Shown piece after piece: positions 42,877 to 47,003 of a stretch of DNA of 55,036 bases. The notes beneath the pieces were generated by a model, which worked only from the letters and a program-made list of their open reading frames with translations, ran no database searches and was not told where the DNA came from. A program made the translations under genes and the position numbers. Source of the stretch: Bdellovibrio bacteriovorus (GTDB lineage: Bacteria > Bdellovibrionota > Bdellovibrionia > Bdellovibrionales > Bdellovibrionaceae); NCBI RefSeq assembly GCF_001592755.1, contig NZ_LUKF01000002.1, forward strand, positions 66,332 through 121,367. Direction: 5' to 3'. Position 1 is the stretch's first letter; each line of letters begins with the position of its first letter.

Positions 42877-42897
42877 TAAGTTTGAAAATGAAAAAAG

Positions 42898-42930
42898 AAA
42901 AAGGCTTCGTGATTGCACGAAGCCTTTTTT
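42898..42930. terminator. Bidirectional terminator between mgtE and the subtilase
   Basis: A 14-bp stem AAAAAGGCTTCGTG / CACGAAGCCTTTTT with a 4-base loop and T tail. Confidence 0.93.
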
Positions 42931-42952: not shown

Positions 42953-44824
42953 TTAAGTCTTGATCAGACCTGATGTCCAATCGCGGATCATAGCCAGAGT
43001 TCCCTGTTTCGCGTTGGCGAACTGAACACCGTAGGCTTGGTTCTTCTCGCTCCACACGACTTGACCTTGCACCTCGATGACTTCATGGCCATCTGGACTT
43101 TGGATTCGCATCGTGACGATACCACCTTTATCAAGGGCCGCATCGGCGTTGAATGACAAACCACCTTCAGAGATCGTGTTCACATTACCGACGAGTTCGC
43201 GGTCTCCGACCATCACGCGGATTTCAGAACTCATTTTAAAGCGATCATATTTACGTTTATTTTTTGGATCACGAGATCGCAACACTTGCCAGAAAGCCAG
43301 TGGCGCCATCAAAAGACCGATCACCACCGCAATAGCACCCGCTCCACCACCTTGACCCGAGCCAGGACCGTTTTGTGTGACGGCTTTCACCAAACCACAA
43401 CCCGCACCACCACCGCCCGGAGACGAAGACGCTTGCTCTGTAAGATAATAAGGCTTGTAGTCAGGTTGCACGGAAGATGTCGTCGCCATTTGCTGAGAAG
43501 TGCGGATCATTTCATAAGCATCAATCCGAGCACTCGTGTAGACGAAATTATTCAGGTAACTATTCGCCGCACTCGTTCCCAAAATCAATTGCTTCATTTG
43601 GTAGCCCGACAAGGACGGGGCCTCACGGAAAGCCAACGCCGCAACACCCGCTACAAACGGAGCTGCCATACTTGTTCCTGACATTTTAATGGTCGTATTA
43701 CCAGGGACTGTACTTTCAATATACTCACCCGGACTGGCGATATGAACTGTCGAAGCGCCATAGTTTGAAAATCCCGAAAGATCATCAAAACGTGTTGAAG
43801 AGGCAATCGAGATATTGCTTGGAACATCATAGTTCGCCGGATACATCGGCTTCGCATCGTTATTGTTTCCGTAGTTACCAGCGGCAGACACCACAAGCAC
43901 ACGACGGTCATAGGCATACGTGATTGCATCATGAAGGGCACGGCTGTAATTACCACCACCCCAAGAGTTATTAATCACGCGCGCGCCATTATTAATAGCG
44001 TAATAAATCGCGCGAATCGCATTTGACGTAGAACCCGATCCATCCGCGCCCAAGAATTTCAAAGGCATGATTTGGATTTTAGATTCCTGCAATGGACGAG
44101 CGAAAATATTTTGGCCGGTACCGACGACAATACCCGCAACGTGAGTTCCGTGATCGTCATCATCCATAAAGTTGCTGTTGTTAGTAATGAAATTCCAGCC
44201 ATTGACGTCGTCGACATAACCATTTTGGTCATCGTCAACACCTGGAGTGCCGGCCGCTTCTACCGGATTCACCCACAAAGCACCTGTTCCACCAGAGCCA
44301 TAAGGCTTAAAGACATCATGGTATCTATCAAGCCCCGTATCCACGACCGCCACGACGACTTTGCCATTTTGTGCACTCAAAGGTGAAAGAAGGGGCCACG
44401 AACGGGCGATGCCCGTTGAAGCATCGGACTGCGAATAGACATTTGAATCCGTCGCCGCAAAACTGCTGTGGGCGAATTGCTCATAAGTCAAACGCTCAAC
44501 AGGTTCGTTCGGAGTGATTTCTGTTTTATCCAAAATATAGTTGGGCTCGATGTACTCGACATCGGGGTCATTTTTCAGGGCCTCAAAGTTGGTTTTTTCC
44601 TCGGCACCCGACTTCATCGTGACTTGCATGATGTCCAAGCCCGGGAAGCTGGCCTTCATCGAAGCCTTACCTAAAAGCTTTGTTTGGGCAATCGCAGCCC
44701 CCCCTGAAGAGGCCTTAAATTTAATAAGGTACTCCCCAGGAACAACCCTAGGTTCGTTCTGCGCAAATGCCGCAGAGCTCAGAAGACTGTAAGAAATAAA
44801 TAGACCGCCTAGAATCCGTTTCAC
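42953..44824 (-). CDS. Subtilisin-like protease with C-terminal membrane helix and PilZ domain
   Basis: A 623-residue fusion. Signal peptide (1-21), inhibitor I9-like propeptide (about 27-100), then an S8 catalytic domain with Asp162 (V-V-D-T-G), His225 (D-H-G-T-H), oxyanion Asn317 and Ser385 (G-T-S-M-A-A-P). A Gly-rich linker with G-C-G (about 470-495) leads to one membrane helix (495-515), a basic stop (R-S-R-D-P-K-N-K-R-K) and a PilZ domain (523-615) with R-x-x-x-R at 524-528 and T-I-S-E-G-G in place of D-x-S-x-x-G. So the protease faces the periplasm and the PilZ domain the cytosol, suggesting c-di-GMP control of an outside protease. Start is GTG with AGGAG six bases upstream. Confidence 0.9.
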   Translation of the reverse strand: MKRILGGLFISYSLLSSAAFAQNEPRVVPGEYLIKFKASSGGAAIAQTKLLGKASMKASFPGLDIMQVTMKSGAEEKTNFEALKNDPDVEYIEPNYILDKTEITPNEPVERLTYEQFAHSSFAATDSNVYSQSDASTGIARSWPLLSPLSAQNGKVVVAVVDTGLDRYHDVFKPYGSGGTGALWVNPVEAAGTPGVDDDQNGYVDDVNGWNFITNNSNFMDDDDHGTHVAGIVVGTGQNIFARPLQESKIQIMPLKFLGADGSGSTSNAIRAIYYAINNGARVINNSWGGGNYSRALHDAITYAYDRRVLVVSAAGNYGNNNDAKPMYPANYDVPSNISIASSTRFDDLSGFSNYGASTVHIASPGEYIESTVPGNTTIKMSGTSMAAPFVAGVAALAFREAPSLSGYQMKQLILGTSAANSYLNNFVYTSARIDAYEMIRTSQQMATTSSVQPDYKPYYLTEQASSSPGGGGAGCGLVKAVTQNGPGSGQGGGAGAIAVVIGLLMAPLAFWQVLRSRDPKNKRKYDRFKMSSEIRVMVGDRELVGNVNTISEGGLSFNADAALDKGGIVTMRIQSPDGHEVIEVQGQVVWSEKNQAYGVQFANAKQGTLAMIRDWTSGLIKT

Positions 44825-44884
44825 CGGTTCTCCTTTGACCCTCTTCTTGTCGGTCGGAAGTCGGGGGTTGTTTAGTGAAAAAGC

Positions 44885-44979: not shown

Positions 44980-45588
44980 ATGAAACAACTTCAGAAAATC
45001 TTCTTGCAAGGTCTTGTGACTTTCTTACCGATTGCGCTGACGATCTACATCATCTACGCCGGTATTGCTATTGTCGATAGCTTCTTAGGAGATGCTCTTC
45101 GCCAAGTTCTTCCCATTTACATTCCTGGTTTGGGTTTCTTGCTCACTGTTCTTCTGATTTTCTTATTGGGCTTGATGCTGAACAACCTTCTTGCAGGTGG
45201 TATCTTTTCCAAGATGGAACAGCGACTGACGCAAGTTCCTTTTATCAAAGCAATCTACTCTCCCCTGCGCGATCTAATGAATCTGTTTTCTAAAGGTGGC
45301 GGACCGGGTGGCCTGCAAAAGGTTGTCTTGGTCGACCTGGGAGACACTGGCATTCGTGCTTTGGGCTTAGTGACTCGTGAAAACTTCCGTGACGTTCCTG
45401 CTATTGAACAAAACGCCGATGATCGCATCGCGGTTTACATCCCGATGAGTTATGGTTTAGGGGGATTCACTTTGATGGTGCCTCGCTCTCGCCTGACTCC
45501 ACTGGATATGCCGATTGAAAAAGCGATGAGCTTAGCCATCACAGGTTGGGTGAAAGCCGATAGCAAGCCCGAAGGAGAAAAGAAATAA
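44980..45588 (+). CDS. DUF502-family membrane protein
   Basis: A 202-residue inner-membrane protein with two helices near the N-terminus (about 10-32 and 48-70) and a cytosolic or periplasmic beta-rich tail. The G-L-V-T-F-L-P-I-A-L-T-I-Y, P-G-L-G-F-L-L-T, V-P-F-I-K-A-I-Y-S-P-L-R-D and P-M-S-Y-G-L-G-G-F-T segments are typical of DUF502 (COG2928), widely conserved and without known function, although plant homologues (COV/LCV) affect membrane traffic. It overlaps the next gene by one base, so it is translationally coupled to it. Confidence 0.9.
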   Translation: MKQLQKIFLQGLVTFLPIALTIYIIYAGIAIVDSFLGDALRQVLPIYIPGLGFLLTVLLIFLLGLMLNNLLAGGIFSKMEQRLTQVPFIKAIYSPLRDLMNLFSKGGGPGGLQKVVLVDLGDTGIRALGLVTRENFRDVPAIEQNADDRIAVYIPMSYGLGGFTLMVPRSRLTPLDMPIEKAMSLAITGWVKADSKPEGEKK

Positions 45589-47003
45589 TGTCTGAAGCTC
45601 CGGCGGTAGAAACCACTTTAGGTAAAGCGCTAAAAATAAATAAAGACCTGAGTCGCTACGGGGCTTTTGCAGAAATCGGCGCGGGTCAGGAAGTTGCTCG
45701 TCACTTCTTTCAAGCTGGAAAAGCTTCGCAAACTATTGCCAAGACGATCTCTGCTTACGACATGATTGTCAGTGATGATATCTATGGTCGCGAAGCCAAC
45801 GGACGTTATGTCTGTGAATCCCGTCTGCAAAAAATGTTAGGTCACGAGTACGATCTTTTAGTGGATCGTTTGGCAGAGACCCGCGGTAAAAACACCTGTT
45901 TCTTTTCTTTCGCTAACACCGTCGCCACGGCTTCTTCTGGAAGCAACAAACAGTCTCACGGCTGGATGGGTGTGCGTTTTCAAACAAAGCCTAACGGTCC
46001 TTCCAACGATATCATCTTGCATGTTCGCATGTTGGATCGCCATCGCTTGCAACAGCAAGAAGCCCTGGGTGTTCTGGGTGTGAATCTTTTGAATTGTGCC
46101 TTCTATGGTATTGAGAAAGTGACAGAGTTCATTCCGCATCTAGTGGAAGGACTTAAAGAAGGTCAGATCATCATCGACGTTATTAAATTCAATGGTCCTG
46201 CCTTAAAGCACTTTGATGTGCGTTTGATGAACTTAGAACTTGTCCGTCGTAAGCTTGCAGAGGCGATTTTATTCTCTCCACAGAATGAGATCCTGAATGT
46301 TTCTGACGCGATTTACGGAAAGTCTTTGTTGATTCAACGAGGCACCTTCCGTCCCGTCACTTCCACTCACCTGGATGTCTTCCAAAAAGGTCTGGCGCAA
46401 ATGAAGGGCGATGTGCGCTTGAGCGAAGGCAAAGATTTAGATGTCCTGCCGATGATGGAACTGACCATGCACAATCTGCAGATGGACGGTCACCTTAACG
46501 AAAAAGACTTCTTGGACCGTGTTGAAACTTTGACGAGTCTGGGTTTTCACGTTTTGATTTCGAACTTCTTCCTGTTCTATAACTTAAAAAGATTCATCCG
46601 TCGTTACAACTCGCACTTTATGGCGTTGGTTGTAGGCGCCACACATTTAGAAAAGCTTTTCACGGAAGATCACTACAAGAATTTAGAAGGCGGTCTCTTA
46701 GAAGGCCTTGGCAAACTGCTTGAGCAGAAAACCAAGGTTTATATTTATCCGCATAAAACATCGCAGGTGTGTTTAACGACGAAGAGCTTTTTTCCGGCTC
46801 CGCACCTTCGCCATATCTATGCTTACTTTTCAGAGAATAAGCAAATCGTGGATATTTCTGGCTGTGATGAGACGGCAGATTATCTGCACTCTATCGACGT
46901 GATGAAGATGATCGAAGCTGGGAATCCGGCGTGGGAAAATCTGGTTCCCGCAAGCGTGCGTGACCTGATCAAAGCAAAACAGCTTTTCGGCTATAAGAAA
47001 TAA
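45588..47003 (+). CDS. Conserved protein of unknown function, 471 aa
   Basis: A cytosolic protein of a widely conserved but uncharacterised family. The N-terminal motif G-A-F-A-E-I-G-A-G-Q-E-V-A-R-H-F-F, followed by A-K-T-I-S-A-Y-D-M, and H-G-W-M-G-V-R-F near 125 are characteristic of proteins that databases label loosely as nicotinate-nucleotide adenylyltransferase or TonB-dependent receptor; neither label is supported by visible motifs (no nucleotidyltransferase H-x-G-H, no signal or barrel). AAGGAG precedes the start. It overlaps the DUF502 stop by one base (TAATG), so the two are made together and may act in the same process. Confidence 0.75.
   Translation: MSEAPAVETTLGKALKINKDLSRYGAFAEIGAGQEVARHFFQAGKASQTIAKTISAYDMIVSDDIYGREANGRYVCESRLQKMLGHEYDLLVDRLAETRGKNTCFFSFANTVATASSGSNKQSHGWMGVRFQTKPNGPSNDIILHVRMLDRHRLQQQEALGVLGVNLLNCAFYGIEKVTEFIPHLVEGLKEGQIIIDVIKFNGPALKHFDVRLMNLELVRRKLAEAILFSPQNEILNVSDAIYGKSLLIQRGTFRPVTSTHLDVFQKGLAQMKGDVRLSEGKDLDVLPMMELTMHNLQMDGHLNEKDFLDRVETLTSLGFHVLISNFFLFYNLKRFIRRYNSHFMALVVGATHLEKLFTEDHYKNLEGGLLEGLGKLLEQKTKVYIYPHKTSQVCLTTKSFFPAPHLRHIYAYFSENKQIVDISGCDETADYLHSIDVMKMIEAGNPAWENLVPASVRDLIKAKQLFGYKK

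Follow-up and report, generated by a model that had tools for sequence, protein, structure and literature searches.

Here we describe a protein of Bdellovibrio bacteriovorus in which a subtilisin-type (S8) protease, predicted to lie in the periplasm, is joined through a cysteine-containing tail of sorting type and a single transmembrane (TM) helix to a PilZ domain predicted to lie in the cytosol. The protein is encoded in a 55,036-nucleotide stretch of assembly GCF_001592755.1 (contig NZ_LUKF01000002.1, positions 66,332-121,367), hereafter the window, to which all positions refer. The fusion is a real and deeply conserved architecture of the inside-out type. The best explanation of the protein as a whole, which we hold with slightly less than even confidence, is that it is a single-pass zymogen protease of the inner membrane and that cytosolic cyclic di-GMP (c-di-GMP) gates its retention, processing or activity, in one direction or the other. 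Such a mechanism is plausible and suggests that the timing of retention and release of a cell-surface protease could be under the control of an internal signal.

The gene is an uninterrupted open reading frame of 623 codons on the minus strand (42953..44824), with a GTG start and its stop codon at 42953-42955, exactly where an initial annotation made from the sequence had placed it; all features of the protein given below are on the same strand. A Sec signal peptide is apparent on inspection at residues 1-21 (AFA|Q; 44762..44824), and a hydrophobic N-terminal leader is present in every orthologue. It is followed by a match to a fervidolysin-type inhibitory prodomain at residues 18-95 (44540..44773; Fervidolysin_NPro-like, PF22148, E 2.3e-7), which overlaps the end of the signal peptide, and by the S8 subtilase domain at residues 155-421 (43562..44362; Peptidase_S8, PF00082, E 1.2e-52). 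The catalytic residues D162 (44339-44341), H225 (44150-44152) and S385 (43670-43672) form an intact triad in DTG, HGTH and GTSM contexts, are identical in all 58 sequences of the homologue alignment and, together with the profile match, assign the protein to family S8. The closest solved S8 catalytic domain is that of Deseasin MCP-01 (3vv3, E 5.2e-60), a likeness restricted to that domain, as the solved chain of 334 residues carries no PilZ. We regard this half of the protein as a predicted zymogen protease. At the other end, residues 522-616 (42977..43261) match PilZ (PF07238, E 3.3e-17), the best-scoring of 19 PilZ matches in the genome; Bdellovibrio has been credited with about 15 PilZ proteins (PMC3271064). 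The S8, prodomain and PilZ matches all exceed the curated Pfam cut-offs.

Between the two halves, hydropathy gives a single strong hydrophobic stretch past the signal peptide, at about residues 491-515, with the TM helix itself at about residues 495-515 (43280..43342) and a proline within it (Pro508, 43301-43303) that is invariant in PilZ-bearing orthologues. Averaged over the 55 orthologues that have PilZ, the net charge is +0.5 before the helix and +4.9 in the 15 residues after it, and in 54 of them the region after the helix is the more positive. Because a signal peptide is combined with this positive-inside asymmetry across one helix, the S8 domain is predicted to lie outside the membrane and the PilZ domain inside. 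This is the arrangement that the initial annotation had proposed, with all three catalytic residues outside and a PilZ domain bearing R-x-x-x-R inside, and the sequence supports both parts.

In a whole-protein search, 55 of 60 relatives proved to carry the fusion at full length. Across the phylum set it was found in more than 100 genomes, belonging to the same order and to one other family of the class outside that order, and the combination is essentially confined to its class; more distant families have S8 homologues only, and the fusion is absent from several relatives with genomes of 1.2-2.0 Mb. Misassembly or a chance reading frame can be dismissed, since the fusion recurs in these genomes at 41-96% identity. 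Nothing was seen of the outcomes that the initial annotation had named as refuting it: a lack of any PilZ hit in the last 100 residues, a predicted periplasmic PilZ domain, or a fusion that is not conserved. Conservation is uneven along the chain, mean pairwise identity being 0.57 for the S8 domain and 0.51 for PilZ, and 0.29 and 0.28 for the TM helix and the Gly-rich linker before it. Within these otherwise drifting segments two positions are fixed, Cys476 (58/58) and Pro508 (54/54).

The protein has a single cysteine, Cys476, at the centre of a GCG signature (residues 475-477, 43394..43402) that recurs on unrelated exported proteins. The initial annotation had remarked that this linker looks like part of a sorting tail, an observation that was right and understated: the tail consists of the GCG motif, a flexible Gly/Pro linker, a TM helix with a proline and a basic cluster, and in the fusion this cluster, which ends the tail in other carriers, runs directly into the R-x-x-x-R of PilZ. 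A first profile of the tail, searched against 79 genomes of the order, also matched exported proteins other than the S8 proteins. A second, built from a 24-row alignment in which the Cys, Gly and Pro are invariant and searched against 369 genomes of the phylum, gave matches in 124 of them, nearly all of this class; the matches cover most genomes of the class, compared with 12 of the roughly 240 other phylum genomes. Leaving the S8-PilZ fusion aside, 36 carriers were inspected; in 34 the tail lies no more than 19 residues from the stop codon, and the two exceptions read on into the apparent signal peptide of the following gene. The passengers comprise M10 matrixin-like metalloproteases, C25 gingipain-like proteins, LPMO-like proteins, other S8 proteases and several proteins of no assigned family; some match families that take their names from myxobacteria, NF043005 (SCE4755) above cut-off and NF041905 ("myxosortase-dependent metalloprotease") weakly and well under it.

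Comparison of these sequences therefore lends strong support to the reading of the GCG linker as part of a sorting tail. The tail probably marks exported hydrolases for membrane retention by default, and perhaps also signals Cys lipidation and in-helix cleavage before release or surface display. It is not a general trait of local S8 proteases, as other S8 paralogues of the host genome and of its relatives lack it. Among the carriers, one S8 protein (L165, in genome G297) has both an N-terminal lipobox-like LLSCS and the C-terminal GCG tail. Four C25 (gingipain/PorU-like) carriers (L138, L144, L166 and L173) reach up to about 2500 residues; type IX-type signals would be expected on such proteins elsewhere.

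Copies without PilZ indicate how the fusion may have arisen. S8 homologues that end after a GC(G/A)-linker-TM-basic segment were found at five loci in the class (L078, L079, L101, L102 and L103) and at one outside it (L106), and more occur in the order of genome G288, elsewhere in the phylum; of the tail-bearing S8 copies that lack PilZ, five belong to the PilZ clade, and another class contributes seven. Phylogeny of the S8 region places the L106 lineage outside all fusion-bearing sequences with support of 98, and the five in-class copies are scattered. Three of these five occur as a second copy alongside the fusion in the same genome (G016, G205 and G253), and L103, the sole copy found in its genome, occupies the foldase-adjacent locus at which other families have the fusion. 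The simplest reading of this pattern starts from an old S8 protease with its tail, to which PilZ was added once and from which it was then lost about five times. On this reading PilZ came to follow a sorting-type tail that already existed, and at least five copies that keep the tail lack it. One genome that retains an intact fusion also has a degraded second copy of its tail and PilZ, interrupted by an in-frame stop (L148, G032:C74).

The domain pair is already on record. A single "Subt-PilZ" protein of B. bacteriovorus (NP_969350.1) was tabulated in a 2008 survey in BMC Genomics (PMC2605481); it has the same two domains and comes from the same lineage, and by description and lineage it is very likely an orthologue of the fusion. 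The survey entry gives no topology, conservation, tail or mechanism. In the sources searched we found no paper on the function of the fusion protein or on the tail in Bdellovibrionota, and within those sources the sorting-type tail appears undescribed.

Several known systems invite comparison. Alg44 of Pseudomonas (4rt1, 4xrn), the closest PilZ match, likewise connects its PilZ domain through a TM helix with a domain in the periplasm. Its domain order is the reverse of that seen here, and the periplasmic part is a secretion adaptor domain instead of a protease. In the LapD/LapG system cytosolic c-di-GMP controls periplasmic proteolysis across the inner membrane (PMC3032553, PMC3032545), and the initial annotation had drawn an analogy with it. 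The analogy holds for function only: LapD/LapG comprises two proteins, a receptor with degenerate GGDEF-EAL and HAMP domains and a cysteine protease, whereas the fusion is a single chain of PilZ and a serine protease, in which control by c-di-GMP is a proposal. Its domains are S8 and PilZ, and no GGDEF-EAL, HAMP or cysteine protease domain was found in the chain, to which the comparison was limited, LapD/LapG not having been searched genome-wide.

For the tail, the experimentally demonstrated precedent of a Cys-TM-Arg arrangement is MYXO-CTERM, in which a Cys motif, a TM helix and an Arg-rich end are cleaved by the CPBP protease MrtX and lipidation of the Cys has been proposed (PMC11980579). 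The GCG tail shares the tripartite anatomy, its position on exported proteins and related passenger families, and differs in its motif, GCGC in MYXO-CTERM as against GCG(L/T/M)V with an invariant TM proline here; in the fusion, moreover, PilZ takes the place of the stop, so that the tail is uniquely extended by a cytosolic domain. Membership can be rejected on profile searches, since TIGR03901 (MYXO-CTERM) gave no match in any of 11 carrier genomes at E 0.1 and the CPBP searches were negative; the tail resembles MYXO-CTERM by anatomy, as far as sequence can tell, and is not a member of it. Six isolated tails compared with the NCBIfam sorting models gave one weak match below cut-off, to TIGR03382, and none was recognised. 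GlyGly-CTERM, processed by rhombosortase (PMC3237569, PMC13393428), is alike in having a Gly-rich motif, a TM helix and a basic end on secreted proteases, and the GCG tail is set apart from it by its invariant Cys and TM proline.

Whether PilZ responds to c-di-GMP turns on its two ligand motifs. The first, RKYDR (R-x-x-x-R) at residues 524-528 (43241..43255), overlaps the basic cluster after the TM helix. It begins only about 8 residues from the membrane and 14-24 residues past Pro508, the spacing being 16 in 27 of 55 orthologues. The second is TISEGG at residues 550-555 (43160..43177). R524, R528, S552 and G555 are invariant in all 55 PilZ rows, as are Gly554 and Trp591. The initial annotation had correctly seen Thr at the first position of (D/N)-x-S-x-x-G; across the 55 rows this position (T550) is Thr in 33, Ser in 20, Asp in 1 and Cys in 1, and the SxxG part never varies. 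A low-confidence model of the domain shows six strands and a helix, and its top fold matches are PilZ domains. The best matches by sequence and by fold are c-di-GMP-bound Alg44 structures, the fold match being 4xrn, though they are weak. Judged from these motifs, PilZ likely binds c-di-GMP; binding is uncertain because Thr or Ser occupies the D/N position, although the RxxxR, Ser and Gly never vary. A few fusions carry a degenerate PilZ (L108, L109 and L118): for L108 the PilZ profile gives nothing at E 0.01, and in L118 the RxxxR is lost on inspection.

In the mechanism that we favour, Sec would export the N-terminal prodomain and the S8 protease to the periplasm, and the tripartite Cys-containing tail would halt translocation and leave PilZ in the cytosol. 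Binding of c-di-GMP would then reorder the segment between the helix and the beta-barrel, altering the cytosolic end of the helix and so gating protease retention, processing or activity. What reorders in PilZ structures upon c-di-GMP binding is the RxxxR segment, and gating at the helix end is proposed because the basic cluster runs into this very segment. The presence of the tail at the end of many other exported hydrolases makes gated retention or processing a likelier mechanism than plain allostery. A bolder version, which we put forward only tentatively, is that Bdellovibrionia possess an undescribed Cys-containing C-terminal sorting signal of exported hydrolases ("GCG-CTERM") whose most conserved substrate bears PilZ on the cytosolic side of the signal, giving c-di-GMP-gated sorting or release of a surface protease; if so, this would be a sorting signal under second-messenger control. 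Several observations weigh against gating by c-di-GMP at a processed tail. Thr or Ser stands in place of D/N, whereas 13 of the 19 PilZ domains of the genome keep D/N; the PilZ model is weak (pLDDT 54) and the full-length model unusable (pLDDT 34); and in the host genome the full-length tail match is on the fusion only. The host genome also contains no CPBP (PF02517) protein, hence no myxosortase homologue, and no rhomboid over the rhombosortase (TIGR03902) cut-off of 84, the best scoring 46 bits there and 49 bits among 11 genomes.

It is rather doubtful that the protease is permanently anchored and unprocessed, with c-di-GMP on PilZ altering dimerisation or TM tilt and hence activity or reach, and with Cys476 serving as an inter-chain disulfide or static acylation site. 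The retention of PilZ in most orthologues, the solitary cysteine and the failure of the CPBP and rhombosortase searches to find a known sorting enzyme would all fit, yet the Cys-TM(Pro)-basic element also ends unrelated exported proteins and PilZ-less S8 copies, which points to a common handling step more than to something peculiar to this receptor. We consider it unlikely that PilZ is a protein-docking or localisation module that senses no c-di-GMP and places the protease, for example, at the pole or at the elongation machinery. PilZ domains that do not bind c-di-GMP are known, such as XC1028 (title of 3dsg), and the Thr/Ser substitution accords with this view, as does gene order: in several other families within the order and class, the fusion gene adjoins a PpiD/SurA-like foldase gene, followed by mreC, an mreD-like gene and mrdA, and at 13 of 17 loci it is found 3' of the foldase gene, in the same orientation and at a distance of 100-411 bp. 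Against docking, no variation is seen across the whole order at either arginine, at the serine or at the glycines, and the foldase/mreC-mreD-mrdA synteny is absent from the window and from the Bdellovibrionaceae loci examined; where present, it hints at a role in envelope growth or folding.

More improbable still is outside-in signalling, in which processing of the tail from the periplasmic side would free a TM-PilZ stub to act on partners in the membrane or in the cytosol itself. Just this stub is what processing of the tail would be expected to leave, but no partner is known, and the PilZ-less copies that bear the tail suggest that processing serves the protease rather than the stub. Least probable of all, and very much so, is that the tail merely resembles a sorting signal, Gly-rich linkers and TM helices being easily matched, and that the fusion is ordinary domain shuffling. 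Short hydrophobic profiles are indeed prone to chance matches, and two further matches in the host genome (L098 and L099) cover the TM part only; the position of the tail at the extreme C-terminus of nearly all inspected carriers, its invariant residues and its concentration in one class argue against chance.

If c-di-GMP does gate the protein, a single polypeptide would carry the predator's attack/growth signal to an exported protease, a simpler arrangement than LapD/LapG. The tail is useful independently of this, as a simple, testable C-terminal signature common to M10, C25, S8 and LPMO-like exported enzymes of a predatory class, which makes the handling of surface hydrolases in Bdellovibrionota directly testable. 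Current NCBIfam sorting models do not pick it up, and its processing enzyme would lie outside the known myxosortase family in at least seven tail-bearing genomes, CPBP being absent also from genomes G016, G017, G018, G047, G039 and G254. Rhomboids do not discriminate: they occur in all 16 genomes tested, including tail-less ones, and the rhombosortase profile finds only rhomboids below its cut-off, in control genomes as well. A 744-residue reading frame of the host genome with a weak rhombosortase match was set aside as a cation antiporter-like protein on inspection. One locus offers a candidate for the processing enzyme of the Cys tail: in genome G272 a 648-residue fusion of LPG_synthase_C with a rhomboid-like domain (L181, 1179-3125, minus strand), by sequence acyltransferase-like and intramembrane-protease-like, overlaps convergently with a tail-bearing matrixin gene (L178); it has no homologue among the loci fetched.

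The foldase-adjacent loci are L058, L064, L065, L067, L103 (the PilZ-less copy), L107-L109 and L115-L117, with mreC beside them and mostly mreD and mrdA too. In the window the fusion gene stands alone, with mgtE convergent and a DUF502 gene divergent. A 471-residue protein (45588-47003, plus strand) has no significant match in Pfam or NCBIfam and is a conserved neighbour of the fusion gene in other Bdellovibrionaceae. Between mgtE (plus strand) and the fusion gene lies a stem-loop resembling a bidirectional intrinsic terminator (42897..42930), with a 15-pair stem and T tracts on both strands; the scan found 3 such sites against 2.4 expected and is not significant by itself. Five nucleotides upstream of the GTG start, a Shine-Dalgarno-like AAAGGAG can be read directly from the minus strand (44830..44836).
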